Positions 1-19,359 of a DNA stretch of 22,574 bases are shown here, piece by piece. The stretch covers positions 1 through 22,574 of the IMG/VR virus record IMGVR_UViG_3300048130_000131; one strand, given 5' to 3'. Position 1 is the first letter of the stretch, and each line of letters opens with the position of its first letter. The position numbers and the translations under genes were made by a program. Below the pieces are notes generated by a model. The model searched no databases. It was not told where the DNA came from and saw nothing but the letters and a program-made list of their open reading frames with translations. The DNA is from a virus.

Positions 1-270
1 TCTGATTGGATACTCCGAGTCAATAGCATCGAAATAATTTTGGTTACCCCATATACCTTTTGCAGAGTTTGCCTTCGGGTTAAATAATTCATACCCTTCA
101 CGGCGAAGCTCTCCATCCGTCTCCCTACGAAAGTTTATCTTGGTGGTGTAATTTGCTGAGGATGAAAGGAAGTTGGACTCCTGCGTAATGGGTACATCAT
201 CAGATGCAGAACCAATCAAAGCACCGCCCTGTGCGGGGTGGATGGTTATGTTTCTATATCTTTTAGCCAT
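1..270 (-). CDS. Virion or tail protein, N-terminal part only
   Basis: The reading frame is open from the ATG at 270 to the window edge, giving 90 codons of a longer protein. It begins MAKRYRNITIHPAQGGALIG and contains the polar stretch RRETDGELRREGYELF. The start overlaps the stop of the upstream fibre gene by eight bases (ATGGCTAA). No Shine-Dalgarno sequence is visible, so translation is probably coupled. It is the last link of a chain of overlapping virion genes, so a structural role such as a tail tube/nozzle or stabilisation protein is likely. I recognise no family with certainty. The rest of the gene lies outside the window. Confidence 0.75.
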   Translation of the reverse strand, partial: MAKRYRNITIHPAQGGALIGSASDDVPITQESNFLSSSANYTTKINFRRETDGELRREGYELFNPKANSAKGIWGNQNYFDAIDSEYPIR

Positions 271-3200
271 GTGAGTACAACTCGTTCTTTAGTTGAGCGA
301 TCGCATCAAGAATATCTTGCTTGGTTGCAACACTAAGGTCTTTTCCTCTTTCGTTCTCTTGTATTGCATCAATTTGTGAGGGATAACATTTTACTCTATT
401 GCCCCATAGTTGAGCTTCTCCTGTTAGGGTAAGATACAAACCGCTACCATTTGTCTGTATGCGCAAATCGCCGTACTCACCAATGCTCCTGTCATAGCAC
501 ATGATGTACCCGAAACCGGAACTAACTCCCATCTCGGTAGCGAGACCATGCATGCTTGTGTCACCCGTAAACCACCCCTGCGCTCTCACCATGTTACTCG
601 ACTCAATCACTCCTCCGACATCAAGTGCGGCTCCGGGATTGGTGTTTTTTATACCGACTTTACCCGAAGAAGTGATGCGCATTGCTTCAGGTCTAGTGGT
701 TCCATTATCAGTACAAAAAGCCAGTGCTCCTTTTCGCAATGTTGCGCTTTCAGAAACCAAGCTTATGGAAGCTATATGATTATGTGTAAGTGCCTTTAAA
801 TTGAATTGTAAAGTTGCGTGATTATTCTCTGCTTCAGTCGTAGGATTGTTCGTTACACTAATAACGGAACTCGTTAAGTTGGGTACGCTTTGGGTATAAC
901 TTGTATCAACTTCAACTACGGGTCTAAAACTACCTCCTGAAATCGAGAGATTACCTCCTAAAATCGAGAGATCACCTCCTGAAATTTGCCAGCCCGCAGT
1001 AGTCCACAAAATAGACTTATCAGTTGTACCTTTGACCACAAGACCACCGCCATCTGCTGTTGCATCAGTTGGTGAATCGGTGGAAGCAAGCTCTATAATT
1101 TTATCGTCTACTTGTAATGTTGTTGAATTGATTGTGTTGGTTGCACCATAAACATTAAGGTTACCACGCACCGTTACATCGCTACCAACATCCAGTGTAG
1201 TTGATACCTTTACATCACCATTAACATCCAACTTGGCTGCAGGTTCATCGATACCGATCCCTACATTTAATGCCTCATCAATACGCATTGCCTCGACCTC
1301 TCCGACATTGAAAGAGACCACATTGCTACGCACAGTCTCCTCTACAGTTTCGGTAAGAGTGGTAATTGTTTCACCTACGGAAGTGGCTAAGCCATTATCT
1401 ACATCCTCCTGTGTGGCGGTTTGCTCAACTGCAACAGGCCCTGTCGTTTCCACAGCAGTTGCGGCTCTTTTTTCCTCCTCCTGAATAACAACAATGGTTT
1501 CACCTACGCTAGTGGCAAGACCTGCATCCACATCATCTTGAGTCGCTGTAGACTCCTGGGCAACATTACCCGCCTTCTCGACTTCGGTTGCTACTCTCTC
1601 TTGATTCTCCTTAGTGGTTACTATGGCTTCACCTACGCTTGTAGCTAATCCACTATCTACATCTTCCTGAGTCGCTAATGACTCTTCAGCTATAAGTACA
1701 TTTGATACCTCTCCTGATGTCGCAAGTCTTTCGGTAGGCTCGTCTACTTTGACAATAACCTCTCCAACTTGAGTAGCTAATCCGCTATCAACATCATCTT
1801 GGGTGGCGGTAGATTCTTGAGCAACTGGTTTATTTGTTGTCTCTTGAGTAGTCGCTATTCTCTCAACAGGCTCTTCGATTTTAACAATCGTTTCACCTAC
1901 ACTTACTGCAAGACCCGCATCTACATCATCCTGTGTAGCTACAACTTCTTCTGCTATAGTACCTGCTTGCTCTTGGGATGTTGCGAGTCTCTCGACTCCG
2001 CCCACTTCCTTAACAATAACTATCGTCTCCCCGACTGTTGTCGCTAATCCTAAATCTACATCTTCCTGAGTGGCAGTTTCTTGGATAGGAATGACATTAT
2101 CAATAAGCTCTTGCTCGGTCTTGGAGTCAGCTACTATCTCAGTAACGGTGACAATAGTTTCGCCCACGCTAGTGGCTAATCCTAAATCTACATCTTCCTG
2201 AGTCGCGGTCTGCTGGACAGGTATCGCCTCCTCAATAATCTCCTGATCGGTCTTAGAGTTAGTTTCGATCTCCGTGATGGTGATGATTTCTTCTCCCACA
2301 GAAGTGGCTAATCCTAAATCTACATCCTCTTGGGTTGCGGTCTGTTTAACAGGAACTGCATTGTCTATAATGTCCTGATTGCTAACTGAATTTTCGATAA
2401 CCTCTGTAACAGTTACGATTGTCTCACCAACGGAGGTGGCAAACCCATTGTCTACATCTTCCTGCGTGGCAACCTGCTCAACAGGCACTGCACTTTCTGC
2501 AAGCTCCTGCTCTGTTTTGGTGTTCGTAACTACTTCAGTTACAGTAGTGATTGTTTCGCCTACAGAAGTAGCAAGTCCCGCATCCACATCTTCCTGAGTG
2601 GCTGGTTTTTGAACCGGAGTCGAGTTTTGTAAAATCTCCTCAGGGGTAAGACTGCTTGTCTGCTCCACTTCAACCACTTCCTCAGAGAAAACGGGACCCA
2701 AGGGGATCTTCGTCCAATCCGTAGAGGATATTTTAAAGTAAAGGTTTTCGGAGTCGTATGCAAAATCTCCCTGATGACCAGTTGCGTCGGTATTGCCTGC
2801 GGGTGTGAAATTGTACCGAAGTGCGTTTATATAATCCTGTATCTTCTGATCCGCCTCCGAAGTGGTGTAAATATCGAAAGAACTAAGAGTAATATTGTGT
2901 GGATTTGATTCAGCTATGTGCTGATTAAATAGCTCGAGGACATTAACATTGGGAACGAGATCAAGTCCTACATCCGTCTTGCTTACACTGTGTGGATTGC
3001 TCGTGGATGCAATATGCTCATTGATTCCACTAGGTAAACCACCACCTGCGGCTACCATCTCTGAGGGAGTTAGATTCTCAACTTTATCCAAACCAACTTG
3101 CGATTTGGTTACATCGTGAGGGTTATCCTTTAATGCTGTATGATCCTGTACAAGTAAGTTTGTTTTACTCTGTATTTCCCCACCTAGTCCGTCGATCTCT

Positions 3201-3940
3201 GTATGATCGTGATTGTGTGGAGCATAGGAGATAGTCTCCAGCATACTGTTTACTTCAGTCTTCGTGAAGTAGTCATTCAGGAAGTTTAAATCAATTATGT
3301 CATCAAGAACATGGTCGTGGTCGGGGCCAACAAGGGATGCTAATTCGTTTTTTGTCGCTAAGCCTTGAAGTGCGATATTGATGTCATCAATGGCAGACTG
3401 AAGTGCGGCAACCTCTTCTGTTTCGTCTGAAAGCTCTATGTTAGTGATACTATCCATGAGCGAGTCACGGATACTATTAAGTTCTGTAATTGAAGCCCGC
3501 AGATCCAAGTCAGCCTGTAGTCCTGTTATATCTGCTATGGTATGATTATGTACTAAACCCGCCCGATCTCCCACTTGTGCAGTTAGGCTTGTTATATCTG
3601 CCTCTAAATTATTTATCTGCCCGGCAAAGGGTAGTCCATTGATGGTTGTATCTACAGCTACAAGTAAATTGTCTACCTCTGCTTTATCATAGTAACCCTG
3701 AGCAAAAGATGCTTCCCCTCCCTCCAAGGTTGTAACACGACCCATTAAATCGGAAATCTTTGTGTTAAGCTCAGACCCTGCGGAAGCTGAAAGAGGTTTT
3801 ACCGTAGAGGATGATGTTAATCCTGTTACTAAATCCTCAACAATAAGGGATGAATCAATAAGGTCTGCAAAGTCCGACTCATCAAGAGTCGCACCCATCA
3901 TAAAATAAGACTTAAGGGTCGTTCTGTTTTGTACGCTCAT
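263..3940 (-). CDS. Large repeat-containing tail fibre
   Basis: 1225-aa fibrous protein. Residues 1-30 (MSVQNRTTLKSYFMMG, then FADLIDS) resemble attachment segments of phage fibres. Residues 60-240 are heptad-like and probably coiled coil. HxH-type motifs follow at about 131 (HNHTIADITGL), 208 (DHDH) and 242 (HNHDH); such motifs bind metal in some trimeric fibres. NPH-x-V-x-K-x-x-VGL motifs occur near 273 and 316, with a looser NPHNITL at 347; these are common fibre modules. Residues 447-887 hold ten 44-aa repeats. The C-terminal third has fibre signatures such as VGIGIDEPAAKLDVNGDV and KVGIKNTNPGAALDVGG. The start overlaps the previous stop (ATGA). It is likely the host-binding fibre; no enzyme domain is visible. 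Family is strong, receptor unknown. Confidence 0.88.
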   Translation of the reverse strand: MSVQNRTTLKSYFMMGATLDESDFADLIDSSLIVEDLVTGLTSSSTVKPLSASAGSELNTKISDLMGRVTTLEGGEASFAQGYYDKAEVDNLLVAVDTTINGLPFAGQINNLEADITSLTAQVGDRAGLVHNHTIADITGLQADLDLRASITELNSIRDSLMDSITNIELSDETEEVAALQSAIDDINIALQGLATKNELASLVGPDHDHVLDDIIDLNFLNDYFTKTEVNSMLETISYAPHNHDHTEIDGLGGEIQSKTNLLVQDHTALKDNPHDVTKSQVGLDKVENLTPSEMVAAGGGLPSGINEHIASTSNPHSVSKTDVGLDLVPNVNVLELFNQHIAESNPHNITLSSFDIYTTSEADQKIQDYINALRYNFTPAGNTDATGHQGDFAYDSENLYFKISSTDWTKIPLGPVFSEEVVEVEQTSSLTPEEILQNSTPVQKPATQEDVDAGLATSVGETITTVTEVVTNTKTEQELAESAVPVEQVATQEDVDNGFATSVGETIVTVTEVIENSVSNQDIIDNAVPVKQTATQEDVDLGLATSVGEEIITITEIETNSKTDQEIIEEAIPVQQTATQEDVDLGLATSVGETIVTVTEIVADSKTEQELIDNVIPIQETATQEDVDLGLATTVGETIVIVKEVGGVERLATSQEQAGTIAEEVVATQDDVDAGLAVSVGETIVKIEEPVERIATTQETTNKPVAQESTATQDDVDSGLATQVGEVIVKVDEPTERLATSGEVSNVLIAEESLATQEDVDSGLATSVGEAIVTTKENQERVATEVEKAGNVAQESTATQDDVDAGLATSVGETIVVIQEEEKRAATAVETTGPVAVEQTATQEDVDNGLATSVGETITTLTETVEETVRSNVVSFNVGEVEAMRIDEALNVGIGIDEPAAKLDVNGDVKVSTTLDVGSDVTVRGNLNVYGATNTINSTTLQVDDKIIELASTDSPTDATADGGGLVVKGTTDKSILWTTAGWQISGGDLSILGGNLSISGGSFRPVVEVDTSYTQSVPNLTSSVISVTNNPTTEAENNHATLQFNLKALTHNHIASISLVSESATLRKGALAFCTDNGTTRPEAMRITSSGKVGIKNTNPGAALDVGGVIESSNMVRAQGWFTGDTSMHGLATEMGVSSGFGYIMCYDRSIGEYGDLRIQTNGSGLYLTLTGEAQLWGNRVKCYPSQIDAIQENERGKDLSVATKQDILDAIAQLKNELYSHG
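1280..2602 (-). repeat. Ten 44-aa (132-bp) repeats in the tail fibre
   Basis: Ten copies of a unit built on ATQEDVDxGLATSVGETIV recur at an exact 44-residue period, at about residues 447-887 of the fibre. Copies 1-4 share a linker with a (K/N)xEQELxExAxPV-like segment. Copies 5-9 carry a different linker (ER-(I/L)-AT followed by VAQES). There are therefore two repeat subfamilies. The core resembles the ATQ-x-E-V-D-A-G motif frequent in tail-fibre proteins. Boundaries are approximate. Confidence 0.85.
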
Positions 3941-10049: not shown

Positions 10050-11432
10050 CTACAAACCTAACGCACCAAGGAGTGCATTATTGGTGGACTTGGGTTGAGG
10101 TTTTGGATCAACCGTAGTTCCCTGTCTTGGTGTAGTAGCTACAGAAGGTGGCTTAGGTGCAGGTTCTTTAGTCTGCACAGGTGCTTGTTGCTGAACAGGT
10201 TGTGCGTCCGATTTAGTGTAACCGGCTTTTTCCAACTGTGTCCTCTGATGAGTCAAAGCGTTATTAACCAAGTCCTGGTATCTGATTGCTAAAATCTTAA
10301 GTAGATCGTTGTCACTCCATGTGTAATACTGAGAGCGTTTATCTTCAGGCATTTGGTAATATCGCTCGCGACGCATAAACATTTTGCCTTCCTGCTCTGT
10401 TTGACCCGACTGAATAAATGATTCCTGCTCTTTTTGGAGCCAGTTATTTAAATCCTTATGAATTTGATTGTTTTCCAAATCAAGCCTTGTGGTTGGATCA
10501 AGGAAGATGTCAGTAAGTGCGTCACTATATGTAAGCAACTGTTGTGTGAAGTTCTCAAGGATTTGATACTCAAATGGATTCTCCTTTGCAAACTGCTGTA
10601 TTGCCTCATCACCTCCGGAAAGTGTTTTGCGGAACTCTTCAGGTATTACGGTTTCTTGTGCTACCCTTCTGAAATTAGCTTTTGCCTGATTAACTCTTGG
10701 TTGCACTTCTTGCCGTTGCAGTTTGGCCTCAAGCTCTTCAACCCTTTCATTCGTACGCTTTACCGTACGCTTGTCTGCTTCTTCAAGAATCATTTCACGA
10801 TAAACCTTATCCTCGTCAGCCCGTGAGAACTCAGGTCTATTCTTCTGTAAAAACTCTTTATACTGATCGTCTGTGGAGGGATCGTAGAAGTCATCCTCTG
10901 CCATTTTCTTATCAAGGTAGTCCTTACTCTTCTTTAAGAATGCTTTGAACTTCTTGGATTTCCCTTTGTGTTCTCCTCCCAATTTCTTGTCGGCATAGAG
11001 AATTTTCTCATACACAACCTTCTCTTCGGGTATAAGTGTATCAATAAACTCCTGCTCTTCAGTGTCGATTAAAGGCTCCTCCGTATCCACTTGTTGCCTA
11101 AATGCAGGCTGTTTCGCAACATCTTCGGGTATATCAGGATCAACAACCTTACGAAGTTTCTTTTTCTTGGGTTCAGCTTTTTCCGGCTCTTCCTCTTTAG
11201 CTTCCTCCTTTGGCTCCTCTTCCTTCTGCTCTTCTTCCTGTGGCTCAGATAGGTCTAGGCTATTTACCGCCTCATTGAGGTTAATAACCTCTCCCTGCCT
11301 TTCTTCCTCTTGCTCAACCTCTTCAGTAGCTTCCTCCGCTACATCAAATAAAGTCTTATATAATGGATTCTCCTTTGGAGTCTCCTCTTGTGGTTTCTCT
11401 TCTACTACCTCTTCAGTTTTTTCTTCGCTCAT
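10050..11432 (-). CDS. Scaffold-like acidic coiled-coil protein
   Basis: 460 aa. Residues 1-95 are extremely rich in Glu and Lys with little hydrophobic content (for example EEVVEEKPQEETPKENPLYK). The middle is helical and charged (ERVEELEAKLQRQEVQPRVN), consistent with coiled coil. The end is a Pro/Gln/Thr-rich linker (KEPAPKPPSVATTP) followed by a small conserved-looking tail, NNALLGALGL. Such a charged helical protein with a short C-terminal capsid-binding tail, between portal and capsid genes, is typical of phage scaffolding proteins. They guide capsid assembly and leave or are cut afterwards. The start overlaps the portal stop (ATGA). No protease domain is seen. Confidence 0.75.
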   Translation of the reverse strand: MSEEKTEEVVEEKPQEETPKENPLYKTLFDVAEEATEEVEQEEERQGEVINLNEAVNSLDLSEPQEEEQKEEEPKEEAKEEEPEKAEPKKKKLRKVVDPDIPEDVAKQPAFRQQVDTEEPLIDTEEQEFIDTLIPEEKVVYEKILYADKKLGGEHKGKSKKFKAFLKKSKDYLDKKMAEDDFYDPSTDDQYKEFLQKNRPEFSRADEDKVYREMILEEADKRTVKRTNERVEELEAKLQRQEVQPRVNQAKANFRRVAQETVIPEEFRKTLSGGDEAIQQFAKENPFEYQILENFTQQLLTYSDALTDIFLDPTTRLDLENNQIHKDLNNWLQKEQESFIQSGQTEQEGKMFMRRERYYQMPEDKRSQYYTWSDNDLLKILAIRYQDLVNNALTHQRTQLEKAGYTKSDAQPVQQQAPVQTKEPAPKPPSVATTPRQGTTVDPKPQPKSTNNALLGALGL

Positions 11433-14276: not shown

Positions 14277-15818
14277 TCAACCCCCTAAATCCAAGATTTC
14301 GGTTTTAACCATTGGTTGAGTTTCCAAGTGCATAGCGTTGTAGTAAATCAACACATAAGACATCGCATCAAACGGGTGAACATAGACTGACCTCTTTGGT
14401 TTAAAAGAGATATTTGGATCGTATGATTTACCAGGCTTCTCGGATATTAAGTTCTGAAACATCTTCAATATAGAAGTACATTGTGCGGATACTAAAAACT
14501 CCTCCTGTTGTAACTTAGCTATTGTGAGCCTTACCCGCGACTCTACTGATCCATTAAACTTAGGGGCGGCTTTCATGCGGATTGGATCCAGCTTGAATGT
14601 TTCTGCCTTATCCCTAGATATTTCCTCTATATCTTTTACATCATAAGAGCCCGTCTTGGCTCGGAACTGATTAAATGCTGAGTTATCTGAGATATGGATG
14701 TATTTAAAATTGTGTTCACACTTTCTGTTCCAGTATGCCATCTTCCGCATAAGGAGGGGAACAAGTGTGGTGTAGGGTATCTTTTTGTTTATCGTGACAA
14801 ACTCATCAAAGACTATCCATATAGTTCTGTCTGCACCCGGTAATGCCTGCATGAATATACAAGCGTTGTTTACGGAACCCGGGTCGTATCCGATGGTTAT
14901 TGGGTAATTCTTATTGGGAAGAATGCCTTTCTTTGCGTCCCCACGGACATGAAGGGTTTTATTAAAGTAAGGACCAAATATTGCATTTCCTGCAGGGCGA
15001 TCTATCCATTCCCCGCGAACCATTCGTGCCTCTTCGATTGGATCAGACTTAACTGCTTCTTGAATCCGATCATAGTATCCGTCAGGTAGGTTAGCTATAT
15101 TATCTTCTATCTTCACATGGTAGACCGCGTAGTCTTTATTCCAGTTACCATCCTTGTCGTATGGATCTTCGAAGAATCTTTTATATACCCAATGACTCGG
15201 TCCGTCAGGGTTGCAAGCGGCGAGATATTGCTGAGGGCCGTGGATTCCTTGCCGTCTACCTAACTGCTGAACTACCGCATTGAAATAATCATCTGTATCC
15301 AAGTTGGTAAGCTCATCCACGAATATCAAACTTGGCTCAAACCCCTTGATTCGATCCTTAATGAACGCACCATAAGGTATAGAAATTAAACATATTCTTG
15401 AATGTCCACCGAATCGGTTTTCTATATCTATATATAAGTTCTTCTGCGTATCCTGTCTTTCATCTGTGTGGTTTAGACCAATCCCATCTACCCACTCAGG
15501 TAATATCTCAACCTGTAGCTTGTGCCACACACCACCCATAGTCGCCTGCGATCTGACACCAACAATGATTAGCGCTAAAGCGTTAAAATTCTCATAGCAA
15601 TGTCGGACTAGCTTGTGACCACCCAATGAGTAGGTTTTTCCGGAACCTCTCTCCCCATACGCAAGGATATATTTGGCGGGGTCATCGAATATCTTACGCT
15701 GAGTAATTGTAAGCGATGGTAACCAAGGCTTCGCATCTTCCTCATCCACTTGCTCGACGGGAGCAAACTTTTCAATGAGGATTTTATGATCAACCTTAGT
15801 TTTTTTCTTCCTCGGCAT
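14277..15818 (-). CDS. terL: Terminase large subunit
   Basis: 513-aa packaging motor and nuclease. ATPase domain: Walker A GERGSGKT at 55-62, Walker B LIFVDE at 164-169, coupling motif ACNP at 201-204. Nuclease domain (RNase H-like): Asp312 in IGYDPGS, Asp378 in HISDNSAF and Asp484 in HPFDAMSYVL, which together bind the metals. All key residues are present and the length is normal for the family. The start at 15818 has AAGGA eight bases upstream and lies within the end of the TerS-like gene (23-base overlap). It pumps DNA into the prohead through the portal and cuts the concatemer. Subfamily and cutting mode (cos or headful) cannot be told by eye. Confidence 0.97.
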   Translation of the reverse strand: MPRKKKTKVDHKILIEKFAPVEQVDEEDAKPWLPSLTITQRKIFDDPAKYILAYGERGSGKTYSLGGHKLVRHCYENFNALALIIVGVRSQATMGGVWHKLQVEILPEWVDGIGLNHTDERQDTQKNLYIDIENRFGGHSRICLISIPYGAFIKDRIKGFEPSLIFVDELTNLDTDDYFNAVVQQLGRRQGIHGPQQYLAACNPDGPSHWVYKRFFEDPYDKDGNWNKDYAVYHVKIEDNIANLPDGYYDRIQEAVKSDPIEEARMVRGEWIDRPAGNAIFGPYFNKTLHVRGDAKKGILPNKNYPITIGYDPGSVNNACIFMQALPGADRTIWIVFDEFVTINKKIPYTTLVPLLMRKMAYWNRKCEHNFKYIHISDNSAFNQFRAKTGSYDVKDIEEISRDKAETFKLDPIRMKAAPKFNGSVESRVRLTIAKLQQEEFLVSAQCTSILKMFQNLISEKPGKSYDPNISFKPKRSVYVHPFDAMSYVLIYYNAMHLETQPMVKTEILDLGG

Positions 15819-16467
15819 CCTTCAGTTCCTTTAGTGGTCGGAAACCTGGTTTCTTTTTGGTCTCCCTGTTATCTCTTTCATTGGCTAGCTTCAACTGAAA
15901 CTCCAACCCTTTTAATAATCTATCGTAGAACTTACCTTGCTGTTCTGTTGCCTGAAGAAATAGTCTTGTCTGAAGTATCCTCTCCTCGGGATCCATATCG
16001 TCACCATCTAGTGCCTCCTTTAATGCTTCGGTGACCTCAAAAAGGCTCATGTTCTGCCTGATGTTAACTTTTTGGGTAATCCTTAAAGCTTCTGCCATCA
16101 ATAAACCAACTGAATCATCAAAGTCCTCAAATATCTTGAGCTTTTGGACATTGTCTTGATTCGTCAAGATACTCTCTATGTCATTATTAAAAACAAATCT
16201 GCTATTCTTATCTAAAGCCTCAAGTAAGCGACTACCCTTCTCGTCATCATGCTCATGTTGTCGTTCCATTAACTCGATACCATCAGGTTTCATCTCCTTT
16301 GTTCCATTCTTCACCCAAATAGCATAAAGTTGTGGGTCTTTATATACCCGCTCCCTTATCTTCTTTGCAGTCGTACCGAAATGCTCCGCCGTTTTTTCGT
16401 AGTCTCCATCAAACTCTTTTAAAGCCTGAGCTAAGACATCGGTTTTTATCTTATGCGTTCTGGGCAT
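15796..16467 (-). CDS. Terminase small subunit-like protein
   Basis: 223 aa directly before TerL. The first 45 residues form a helix-turn-helix-like unit (LKEFDGDYEKTAEHFGTTAK, then KIRERVYKDPQLYAIW), which fits the DNA-binding domain of small terminases. The rest is helical (SVGLLMAEALRITQKVNIRQ, and a long helix near 165-195), suited to ring assembly, and ends in a charged tail. It would recognise phage DNA and control TerL. The call depends on position and HTH pattern; a DNA-binding accessory protein is the alternative. It overlaps the preceding gene by 17 bases. Confidence 0.65.
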   Translation of the reverse strand: MPRTHKIKTDVLAQALKEFDGDYEKTAEHFGTTAKKIRERVYKDPQLYAIWVKNGTKEMKPDGIELMERQHEHDDEKGSRLLEALDKNSRFVFNNDIESILTNQDNVQKLKIFEDFDDSVGLLMAEALRITQKVNIRQNMSLFEVTEALKEALDGDDMDPEERILQTRLFLQATEQQGKFYDRLLKGLEFQLKLANERDNRETKKKPGFRPLKELKDAEEEKN

Positions 16468-16828
16468 CTTGAAATATCTTTATGAGAGGTAGGAATGTGG
16501 TATTCCAATGATCCGATCTCCGCAGAAAAGCGTAAGTTCCTTTACGGGAGTAGGCAGATATACGATTCCTGTCTAAATAATTAAATGGGTCGAAGTTACA
16601 GCCCCTACAGAACCTGCGAGCGTCCCCTACCGTCACATCATCCCATGATGTAAGCTTGGAGATTTCGCGAACGCGATCCAAAGGCAACTCACCACGAATA
16701 GCAACCTCTTGGTCGCTAAGGGCACAGTGCATACGAGACCCAGCTCGTTCTTTTGCGTATAATCTTACGAAGACGGGTGGATACTTAACAAGTATCTCCC
16801 ACGGGTTCTGTTTTCCATTCTTGGGCAT
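16451..16828 (-). CDS. Conserved-looking phage protein of unknown function
   Basis: 125 aa. It contains PPVFVRLYAKERAGSRMHCA, then SDQEVAIRGELPLDRVREIS, which reads like a helix-turn-helix, and then a Cys pair in FCRGCNFDP followed by FLRRSDHWNTTFLPLIKIF. I have a sense that similar small proteins lie beside terminase genes in other phages, so a role in packaging or DNA recognition is possible, but the function is unknown. The ATG at 16828 has AAGGAG about 11 bases upstream and overlaps the previous gene by 44 bases. Confidence 0.6.
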   Translation of the reverse strand: MPKNGKQNPWEILVKYPPVFVRLYAKERAGSRMHCALSDQEVAIRGELPLDRVREISKLTSWDDVTVGDARRFCRGCNFDPFNYLDRNRISAYSRKGTYAFLRRSDHWNTTFLPLIKIFQDAQNA

Positions 16829-17015
16829 TGATGAGTTGCTCCTTCATTACGACAGAGTTTTTTTCAACATCTGCCAGGACTACTTTTGTTTTGCAACCCG
16901 CACGAGTGCCAGTCAATACCCATGAATCTAAGTACTCTTCAAGTATAGGACGCACTCTTTCAAATGCATCAAACATCTCCGACTTAACCTTCATTACTTT
17001 TTTACCATCCTCCAT
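16785..17015 (-). CDS. Small unknown protein, first gene of packaging operon
   Basis: 76 aa, mixed helix and strand (VRPILEEYLDSWVLTGTRAG, KTKVVLADVEKNSVVMKEQL), with no membrane segment. It is the first frame after the regulatory stretch 17016-17111 and overlaps the next gene by 44 bases. No strong Shine-Dalgarno precedes the ATG. I recognise no family. Its overlap is longer than others in this operon, so the true stop-start arrangement deserves caution, but the frame is continuous and fits the operon direction. Confidence 0.5.
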   Translation of the reverse strand: MEDGKKVMKVKSEMFDAFERVRPILEEYLDSWVLTGTRAGCKTKVVLADVEKNSVVMKEQLINAQEWKTEPVGDTC

Positions 17016-17050
17016 GTTTTAGAATTAACAAAACACTTGATTTAAATGCA

Positions 17051-17099
17051 ACACGAAAATTCGTGTAACTCTTAAAGTATGTGCAAAATAATATTTTGC
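17051..17099 (-). promoter_or_regulatory. Two dyads in leader of packaging operon
   Basis: ACACGAA-AA-TTCGTGT (17051-17066) and GCAAAAT-AAT-ATTTTGC (17083-17099) are perfect inverted repeats in an AT-rich stretch before the first packaging gene. The first matches the capsid-leader dyad in 14 of 16 bases. They probably bind a regulator of late transcription; the operon promoter should lie here, though no classical -35/-10 pair is convincing on the minus strand. Confidence 0.55.
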
Positions 17100-17111
17100 T
17101 CGTCCCTTTGT

Positions 17112-17173
17112 GGAGCAATGTGGAGCAATCCGTGGAGCGATTGGGAGCGATCTTAGGAGCGATTGGGAGCGAT
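17112..17173. repeat. Six phased GGAGCRAT octamers
   Basis: On the plus strand GGAGC(A/G)AT starts at 17112, 17122, 17134, 17144, 17156 and 17166. Steps alternate 10, 12, 10, 12, 10 bases, so three 22-bp units of paired sites, all on one face of the helix. The first two have A at the variable position, the last four G. The last two lie inside the end of the integrase gene. This looks like an iteron or operator array for a DNA-binding protein. Confidence 0.85.
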
Positions 17174-18220
17174 CGAGAAATATGCTTTTGCTATCTTCTT
17201 ATCCACCCTGTTGTTCTTGTAGTTTTTAAGGAATGTCTCGGATGACATGTGTCCCATGATGTCCAGGGATGTCTCAAAACCTAAGTGCCAATACGCATAA
17301 CTAGCGAAGGAATGCCTTGCTCCGTTTGCGGGATAGTCAAATCCTTCAACTCCTCCGCCTCCCCTTCTACCATTATTCTTCCAGCCGTATGCCCTTCTTG
17401 AAGCCCGTCTTCTCGCTTGGTTAAAACCTGAGTATGATGGCATAACTAATCCAGTAGTTCTTTTGGGTAACCACTTCCATAAATTTGGAGGAGGTACGAT
17501 CCATCGCTCATATCCTGTTTTAGTGATTTCTGCTTTTAGTCCGATTCTTTCCCCGTACTGAATATCTGAATACTGTAGTAGGCTTAACTCGCCTTCCGGT
17601 CGGATCCCCGTGAATAAAGCAATTGCCATGGCAGGCTTATACTTATCGGGCATTGCCTCCAATAGAGATCTTGCTTCTTCCACTTGTAAAATACCGGGTA
17701 ATTTAAAGAAGACCTTTTTTTGGACCAATTTTAGGCTCTCATTGTCCTTGATGTACCAATCTTTCTCATTTGCACCATATCCTTTTTTCCCACACCATGC
17801 CATGAATGTGCGGACGGATGCCGAGTAACCCTGCTTGGTTTTAAACGACCAATTAGAAGAGTTCACATATTCGTGGTAATCCTTTTCTTTTACTTCACTT
17901 ACGAACCTGCCTTCACCGAACCATTTTAAGAACTTATTAACTCTTTCCTCTGTAGTTAGGTAACCCTTCTGCTTCTTCTTGAATTTATTATAGTTTTCCT
18001 CGTCGTAGGCTTTTAAGTATTCATCCCGTGCTATTCGCAATATGGTCTTATCTCCCGTTGGTTCCTTTTCGGATAATTCACCCAACCAATCGACCACATC
18101 AAAAGAGTTAGCTTCTTTCCATGAATCGAAAAATTTTCTTCTTCTTTTACCTTGGTGTAGAATATTTACTACCCATTTTATCTTTCCTCGAACTTCGTGC
18201 TGTTTGATACTTACCTTCAT
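17153..18220 (-). CDS. int: Tyrosine recombinase integrase
   Basis: 355 aa, normal length. An N-terminal strand-rich arm-binding domain (residues 1-35, HQGKRRRKFF) and a SAM-like core-binding domain (85-145) precede the catalytic domain. Catalytic residues: Arg207 in FTGIRPEGEL, Lys234 in ITKTGYERW, Arg302 in NGARHSFASY, His324 in IMGHMS, and nucleophile Tyr334 in FLKNY. The usual first His of the H-x-x-R box is Asn299, a known variant. The enzyme joins attP to a tRNA-Arg gene. The ATG at 18220 lies two bases from paired TGTTGACAAA sites, so Int may control its own gene. Its last codons (APNRS) are also part of the phased octamer array. Confidence 0.95.
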   Translation of the reverse strand: MKVSIKQHEVRGKIKWVVNILHQGKRRRKFFDSWKEANSFDVVDWLGELSEKEPTGDKTILRIARDEYLKAYDEENYNKFKKKQKGYLTTEERVNKFLKWFGEGRFVSEVKEKDYHEYVNSSNWSFKTKQGYSASVRTFMAWCGKKGYGANEKDWYIKDNESLKLVQKKVFFKLPGILQVEEARSLLEAMPDKYKPAMAIALFTGIRPEGELSLLQYSDIQYGERIGLKAEITKTGYERWIVPPPNLWKWLPKRTTGLVMPSYSGFNQARRRASRRAYGWKNNGRRGGGGVEGFDYPANGARHSFASYAYWHLGFETSLDIMGHMSSETFLKNYKNNRVDKKIAKAYFSIAPNRS

Positions 18221-18221
18221 G

Positions 18222-18265
18222 TGTTGACAAATCTGTTGACAAAAAAACTGCTATTTAGTGTCAAC
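18222..18265. repeat. Putative Int arm-binding sites, int side
   Basis: TGTTGACAAA occurs at 18222-18231 and 18234-18243 (12-bp step). An inverted partial copy, TGTCAAC, is at 18259-18265. The family resemblance to TTGTTGCCAAA on the other side of the tRNA fragment suggests arm-type integrase sites. They lie over the int start region. Confidence 0.65.
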
Positions 18266-18298
18266 GATTGGTAAATAATGAATAATTTTATGTCTACC

Positions 18299-18326
18299 AA
18301 AAAAAAGAGCCTCACTGCTGAGACCC
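18299..18326 (-). terminator. Intrinsic terminator between att core and int
   Basis: On the minus strand GGGTCTCA pairs with TGAGGCTC around a GCAG loop (18326-18307, eight pairs with two G-T) and is followed by eight Ts (18306-18299). Flanking AAA/TTT pairs could lengthen the stem. It lies 33 bases after the tRNA fragment. It would end transcripts from the regulator operon and, after integration, those of the rebuilt tRNA gene. Confidence 0.85.
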
Positions 18327-18358
18327 TTTGTTTAAGCGAGATTGACGCTTTAAATGAA

Positions 18359-18408
18359 TGGCACACCCGGAGGGAGTCGAACCCCCAACCTCCTGGTCCG
18401 TAGCCAAG
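18359..18408 (-). other. attP core: 3' part of a tRNA-Arg(ACG) gene
   Basis: Read on the minus strand: an anticodon stem CTTGG/CCAGG with loop CTACGGA (anticodon ACG), variable AGGTT, T-arm GGGGG-TTCGACT-CCCTC, acceptor half CGGGTGT, discriminator G and encoded CCA. No D-arm or 5' acceptor half is present upstream, so it is not a whole gene. A tRNA 3' end beside an integrase is the classic form of a tRNA-targeting attachment site. After integration it would restore the host tRNA. The exact core boundary is unknown; homology may begin in the anticodon loop. Confidence 0.88.
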
Positions 18409-18438
18409 CTTTAATCGGCTATTTTACAAGGACTCAGG

Positions 18439-18684
18439 CTATTGTTGCCAAATTGTTGCCAAAACACAGGTGCAAACTATTAAAGTACAAACCACAACTG
18501 CGGTGCAGGCTATTGCAACTATCATTTGCTCCTTCCTTTGGGTATCTAGCTTAATGGCAACATCATGAATGTCATTTAATCGGTGTCCATCAATTCGCAC
18601 TTCGCCAATCTCGCCATCCAAATCAGTAGACCATTCTTGGGTGTCATGAAGTATTCTTATATTTTGGGTGGCGGGGTTGCTCAT
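18439..18684 (-). CDS. Small single-pass membrane protein
   Basis: 81 aa. A soluble region (EVRIDGHRLNDIHDVAIKLD) is followed by one membrane helix at about 54-77 (MIVAIACTAVVVCTLIVCTC) and a short end, IWQQ. The purine run AAAGGAAA lies about a dozen bases before the ATG. It follows the ribbon-helix-helix gene by 28 bases, probably in one transcript. The final codons overlap the TTGTTGCCAAA repeats. It might be a lysogenic-conversion or superinfection-type protein; no family is recognised. Confidence 0.55.
   Translation of the reverse strand: MSNPATQNIRILHDTQEWSTDLDGEIGEVRIDGHRLNDIHDVAIKLDTQRKEQMIVAIACTAVVVCTLIVCTCVLATIWQQ
18442..18463. repeat. Putative Int arm-binding sites, distal side
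   Basis: TTGTTGCCAAA is repeated exactly in tandem at 18442-18452 and 18453-18463. It differs from the int-side TGTTGACAAA by one base in the shared ten. Two on each side of the tRNA fragment is the expected layout for arm sites of an integrase. Confidence 0.65.
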
Positions 18685-19125: not shown

Positions 19126-19359
19126 ATGGATGAGAAAAACAAAGAATCATACTTAATGAAAGGGTCTGAAGTTATCACTTTTCTAGGCTTAAAAGCCACG
19201 GCGGGGTACAGATACCTTCAACATCTTGAGAAGCATCAGATCATTCGACCAATCAAACTTCCCGGTCTTAAAACACCAAGGTGGAAGAAAGAGGAAATCG
19301 TGGAACTAGCGAACACTCGCGACTCGGTCGAATGCCCTGAATTTGTAGTAAATCAATAA
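19126..19359 (+). CDS. Excisionase-like winged-helix protein
   Basis: 77 aa. The sequence KGSEVITFLGLKATAGYRYL, then HQIIRPIKLPGLKTPRWKKE has the MerR/excisionase winged-helix order: a recognition helix, a turn, then the Trp-Lys-Lys wing, ending EEIVELAN. It is small like phage Xis or AlpA proteins and is the first gene of the rightward arm, near the attachment site. It may help Int cut out the prophage or control early genes. No good ribosome site precedes the ATG, so a leaderless or weakly initiated message is possible. Either role is inferred. Confidence 0.65.
   Translation: MDEKNKESYLMKGSEVITFLGLKATAGYRYLQHLEKHQIIRPIKLPGLKTPRWKKEEIVELANTRDSVECPEFVVNQ

Follow-up and report, generated by a model that had tools for sequence, protein, structure and literature searches.

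Why should a phage integrase gene run at its 3' end into evenly stepped copies of a single octamer, just where the packaging genes begin? The question is raised by the window analysed here, an entire IMG/VR contig of 22574 bases from an uncultured temperate phage. A first-pass annotation had proposed a binding array for an oligomeric protein, serving as a late activator site, a terminase recognition (pac) site or an origin of replication. We find that the array is real but that it does not correspond to the specific binding site of that proposal. The features concerned are these.

17112-17173, plus strand: array of six GGAGCRAT octamers (ATYGCTCC on the int strand), in steps of 10, 12, 10, 12 and 10 bp
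17153-18220, minus strand: tyrosine integrase gene (int), PHROG integrase match 3.5e-20
17082-17101: A+T-rich dyad GCAAAATATTATTTTGC, between the array and the operator-like palindrome
17045-17062: operator-like palindrome ACACGAATTTTCGTGT, exact or degraded in nearly every related spacer
17015-17045, minus strand: conserved stretch TTGCAT...TTCTAAAACATGG up to the start of g76, a putative promoter by eye only
16785-17015, minus strand: g76, 76 amino acids, first gene of the packaging operon, fast-evolving
15796-16467, minus strand: TerS-like protein, 223 amino acids, assigned by its position before TerL
14277-15818, minus strand: large terminase (TerL), Pfam Terminase_3, 3.3e-12
19126-19359, plus strand: Xis-like protein, 77 amino acids, AlphaFold2 model

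Direct reading confirms the six octamers and their steps. On the plus strand they start at 17112, 17122, 17134, 17144, 17156 and 17166, the first two being GGAGCAAT and the following four GGAGCGAT, and a repeat search recovers the three 22-bp units described earlier. The window has seven matches to GGAGCRAT, where 1.37 are expected and shuffled sequences reach four at most; six of the seven fall within the array. The Tandem Repeats Finder score of 60 was equalled in one of 100 dinucleotide-shuffled windows, and the four copies of a 7-mer within 62 bp were not attained by any 7-mer in 60 shuffles. The octamers do fall on a single helix face, with phasing above chance; for 10.5 and 10.8 bp per turn the phase coherence comes to 0.87 and 0.96, respectively. 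Read on the int strand, the array has 18 C and 5 G at regular spacing. No RNA family was matched in an Rfam search at the array, and a literature search found no description of arrays of this kind.

The overlap with int is as annotated; the octamers at 17156-17163 and 17166-17173 code part of the Int C-terminus (IAPNRS, stop), the gene ending at 17153. The coding part of the double constraint proposed earlier is incidental, since there are other relatives whose arrays sit fully outside int. The nearest cultured relative of Int is the integrase of Akkermansia phage Chantilly (24.7%). The minus strand continues after int with g76, g126, the TerS-like gene, TerL and a portal-like protein, so the array does lie directly upstream of the packaging operon (g76-g126-TerS-TerL), and both dyads reported beside it are present (17034-17083 and 17074-17108). 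Among the spacers listed, dyad GCAAAATATTATTTTGC is confined to the window phage and its identical contig L005. Two 80-kb contigs each have a single exact copy of the ACACGAATTTTCGTGT palindrome. The palindrome ACACGAAnnTTCGTGT (17045-17062), present in the spacers of most relatives, resembles the operator of a putative repressor. A promoter scan called none in the conserved stretch before g76, and a terminator scan between int and g76 gave no intrinsic terminator. The g76 product evolves far faster than its neighbours, with for example 42-44% identity where TerS retains about 90%; structure and family searches gave it no informative fold or family match, and a family search of the TerS-like protein was likewise uninformative.

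What becomes of the array in related phages? All relatives are metagenomic contigs. A search with int found 23 loci. Five or six octamers are kept beside the near-identical ints (L002-L005, n=4), and five of the six are also present in L002, L003, L004 and L022. L006 has two octamers followed by a different 11-bp repeat, and the remaining int relatives carry other repeats or none. The L022 int is only 65% identical, yet its array and downstream sequence are as in L002. L002 shares int and array with the window phage but not the sequence beyond, and L022 shares with L002 the array and what lies downstream but not int; the array is therefore bordered by recombination joints on both sides.

In 80 relatives found by TerL, the spacer before g76 is again the array site, with unrelated units at periods of 9-12 bp. 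Forty-two related spacers were grouped into 30 clusters that are not fully independent. Arrays are found in 12 of the 30 clusters, one with a period of 9, and those under the repeat-finder threshold are missed. The other 18 clusters have none, some with room to spare, although the terminase genes and usually int are kept. This is an outcome that the first-pass annotation had named as telling against its proposal, and an array missing from 18 of 30 clusters cannot be essential.

Where arrays exist, their period is held at the pitch of the helix, 10-12 bp or its multiples, and the sequence of the unit is exchanged completely from one relative to the next. About 20 unrelated units occupy the int/packaging spacer of the group, nearly all with a period of 10-12 bp. 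At the same place we find ATCGCTCCCA in the window phage, TCCACATAAC in L224, TCCTACATAAA in L235, CTATCGGCGAG and AAGGTGCTACC in L244, TTATTCCACC in L273, CACATAAACCT in L006 and TGGAACTGGT in L012. A single spacer can hold several units (at least four in L248, three each in L257 and L265). L265 has the longest arrays, in which three different decamers are joined, about 18 units in all, and the 10-bp step is unbroken across the joins; an intrinsic-terminator-like hairpin precedes them, and no int/xis module lies beside them. Scanned over lags 5-30, the self-similarity of the eight strongest clusters peaks at 10, 11 or 22 only. Copy number also changes between close relatives, L096 having two 11-bp units and L093 six in otherwise alignable sequence. 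Several arrays begin inside the int stop region, and other relatives carry 10-bp arrays just upstream of int. Within these genomes, hardly any other site carries non-coding tandem arrays, and the spacer is their hotspot. Over some 1.1 Mb of the group (whole contigs of 42-80 kb together with all loci, which partly overlap them) such arrays are confined to it or to sequence just upstream of int, with the exceptions of two A+T-rich 10-mers and one 12-mer; in control viral contigs the periods of non-coding arrays are mixed, from 8 to 31. Among relatives, place and helical period recur; the unit itself is swapped outright or the array lost. Predicted curvature, calculated with wedge parameters, is not consistently high (it is low in L006 and G291), and curvature as the conserved property was rejected.

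The octamer is not restricted to this group. When viral contigs were scanned for pairs of octamers at a 10-bp distance, 66 stretches emerged, many of them chance or coding. The ATYGCTCC unit with 10- and 12-bp steps occurs in unrelated marine phage contigs, often adjoining other decamer arrays. It lies between TerS-like and TerL genes in L036, L051, L074 and L084, directly 3' of the TerL gene in L053 and L059, and also in L035, L063, L069 and the pair L072/L164, where no terminase gene was identified beside it. Since these contexts were found through the octamer itself, its prevalence is not estimable from them. A minority of the 80 relatives in the L084 group have arrays, which, judged against array-free relatives, belong to an optional stretch some 150 bp long. 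L164 comes from a single-cell genome of the Verrucomicrobia, and arrays of this type are absent from the sampled chromosome of that genome. A host-genome origin of the repeats was rejected, 400 kb of the single-cell genome having none except on the array-bearing contig, and the GGTTGGAACT repeat was absent from sampled members of the class. Bacterial matches to three phased octamers were set aside as mostly unrelated minisatellites, many with 12-bp (coding-like) steps.

Some further observations concern these other phages. In L084 and L304-L382 a strongly conserved polypurine/G+C-rich block, GGGGGGGAGGGGG...GGCGGCCCGCCGGTCACCGAGACCG, follows the TerS-like gene about 200-300 bp upstream of TerL; it may be a cos/pac or control region of this second phage group, and the optional segments are inserted after it. 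In L059 (13939-14151), L053 and L222 as many as four different decamer arrays follow one another, those of L053 and L059, from another phage lineage, directly following the TerL stop codon.

How is the array best explained? Place and helical period recur, and sequence and the trans-factors tested do not, so we prefer an optional phased platform, a reading to which we give a probability of roughly 40%. The array would be one state of a rapidly rewritten tandem-repeat region immediately 5' of the conserved operator and the start of the packaging operon, maintained for phasing rather than sequence, with protein binding putative. Slippage and recombination would rewrite the units while phasing along one face of the helix persists. 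Most likely, we infer, the array provides a double-strand platform beside the promoter of the packaging operon, optional and tolerant of sequence, which might act through DNA bending or carry a filament of a small DNA-binding protein at about one subunit per turn. For the oligomeric-protein array of the first-pass annotation, phasing and place fit and a double-strand DNA binder is reasonable; the specific candidates are unsupported.

There are precedents for such loose recognition. In BldC and RdfS filaments each subunit occupies about 10 bp and sequence specificity is low (PMC11963761), and the SF6 TerS offers a case of period-driven recognition in which bent DNA is selected without sequence (PMC4737164). 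The array resembles the sites of BldC/RdfS/Cox-type winged-helix filaments, which have head-to-tail repeats, a low sequence demand and a subunit for roughly every turn (PMC11963761), and the window phage encodes a protein predicted to have that fold; the best PDB match of the Xis-like model is DNA-bound BldC (TM 0.75 on target, E 0.02). The difference is that the Xis-like protein does not track the presence of the array. It is 90-95% identical in the array-free L007 and L009 and in L012, where the array is different.

Regulatory repeats are usually recognised by conservation of sequence. Here place and spacing recur instead, so standard motif searches would miss the arrays. If the phasing is functional, these spacers form a natural series on shape and periodicity versus sequence in DNA recognition upstream of packaging genes. 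If it is not, slippage at a phage module border can mimic a binding array.

The main rival is that second case, a neutral minisatellite at a recombination joint, which is quite possible and nearly as likely as the phased platform. The spacer would accommodate insertions, slippage would expand any short sequence and module exchange at the int/packaging border would spread and replace the units, the spacer being only a spacer. Like bacterial minisatellites and short tandemly repeated sequences, the array consists of head-to-tail copies in homogenised blocks with a copy number that varies among relatives, as between L096 and L093. The arrays starting within the int stop region, their absence from 18 of 30 clusters, the recombination junctions in L002 and L022 and the optional insertion of the second phage group all agree with neutrality. 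Against it, each genome of the window group has its arrays in a single spacer and with periods at the helical pitch, where the control viruses have mixed periods, and in L265 the phase persists through changes of unit. We caution that a 10-11 bp period could arise from a mutational rather than a selective cause.

An unlikely variant supposes that the period is all there is, with selection or an active process holding a 10-11 bp step at one place while units are rewritten in blocks. The different units that sometimes share a phase (L265, L248 and L257) count towards it. If true, it would imply a protein that reads helical phase alone or a mechanism that writes units of about 10 nucleotides.

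A pac element read by shape, in which TerS with weak, sequence-independent contacts would pick out bent, phased DNA as in SPP1 and SF6, we consider rather improbable. The SPP1 pac has direct repeats and overlaps both late promoters and the beginning of the TerS gene (PMC6316719; PMC4737164). The pac regions of SPP1 and SF6 thus resemble the array in having direct repeats upstream of packaging genes, near late promoters, in bent DNA recognised without strict sequence (PMC6316719, PMC4737164), and arrays adjoin terminase genes in the window phage, L059, L069 and the L084 group. They differ in that relatives of the window phage can lack the array despite a near-identical TerS, and in that the unit of the array is exchanged wholesale from one relative to another. 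TerS is 88-90% identical in L225, L226 and L229, which lack the array, whereas L002 has nearly the same array with a TerS only 57% identical; compared across relatives, neither TerS nor the Xis-like protein tracks it. The L072/L164 arrays next to no identified terminase gene and the inconsistent curvature also weigh against this explanation. The terminase recognition site of the first-pass annotation is accordingly unsupported as stated, the array not being kept wherever the same TerS is kept. For the late activator site, also unsupported as stated, the array does adjoin the operator-like palindrome; the palindrome is conserved and the array is not.

Regularly spaced arrays of short repeats lie beside the terminal repeat of T7, near the genome ends and packaging region. 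The window-group array differs, its sequence not being conserved among relatives and no terminal repeat being known in the window phage.

A Rho-dependent terminator is quite improbable. C-rich, G-poor, unstructured RNA past int, with cytosines every 10-12 nucleotides, would separate int from the operon. Like rut sites, the int strand of the window array is C-rich, G-poor and evenly spaced, the bias is extreme in several relatives (24 C and 0 G; 20 C and 0 G) and the int-g76 interval has no intrinsic terminator. Unlike rut sites, the strand composition is reversed in several relatives, with G-rich arrays on the same strand in L012, L257 and parts of L265 and L244. In L265 a terminator-like hairpin already precedes arrays that have no int upstream, and the rut-like score of the window array reaches only the 94th percentile of the window. 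Rho was dropped as the main reading because of these G-rich arrays and because an apparent convergent gene in L002 overlaps g76 on the opposite strand.

Accessory recombination sites, either arm sites for Int or sites for Xis, are very improbable. The array adjoins int, its step is one turn and the Xis-like protein is modelled as a BldC-type winged helix. Yet the probable attachment site lies on the opposite side of int and has arm-like repeats of its own:

18222-18242: a pair of TGTTGACAA repeats at 12-bp spacing, probable arm-type sites for Int, flanking attP on its int side (direct reading)
18360-18409, minus strand: tRNA-Arg-like gene, 3' half only, with the anticodon read as ACG; probable core of attP (direct reading)
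18441-18463: a pair of ATTGTTGCCAA repeats at 11-bp spacing, probable arm-type sites across the core from the first pair

As judged by reading the sequence, attP is likely to span 18222-18463, about 1.1 kb from the array. The array is thus neither within the probable attP nor found together with int and xis; L265, with the longest arrays, has neither gene there, L007 and L009 keep a near-identical Xis-like protein without an array, and other relatives place 10-bp arrays on the upstream side of int. ARAGORN found no full tRNA in the window, and the tRNA fragment, searched in 113 genomes for host assignment, gave no match. At the same border L026 has a complete tRNA gene (10832-10904) right after a different integrase (34% identical), which is likely a different attachment site.

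Replication-origin iterons, to which the 22-bp units are comparable in length, are scarcely credible, as most relatives have no array, no initiator gene was found nearby, and there is no origin signal at the array, the cumulative GC-skew minimum being at 19276, about 2 kb away.

Repetition of a different kind is seen elsewhere in the window, at 263-3940, where a long tail-like protein has many imperfect internal repeats, with a period of 132 bp at 2043-2379.
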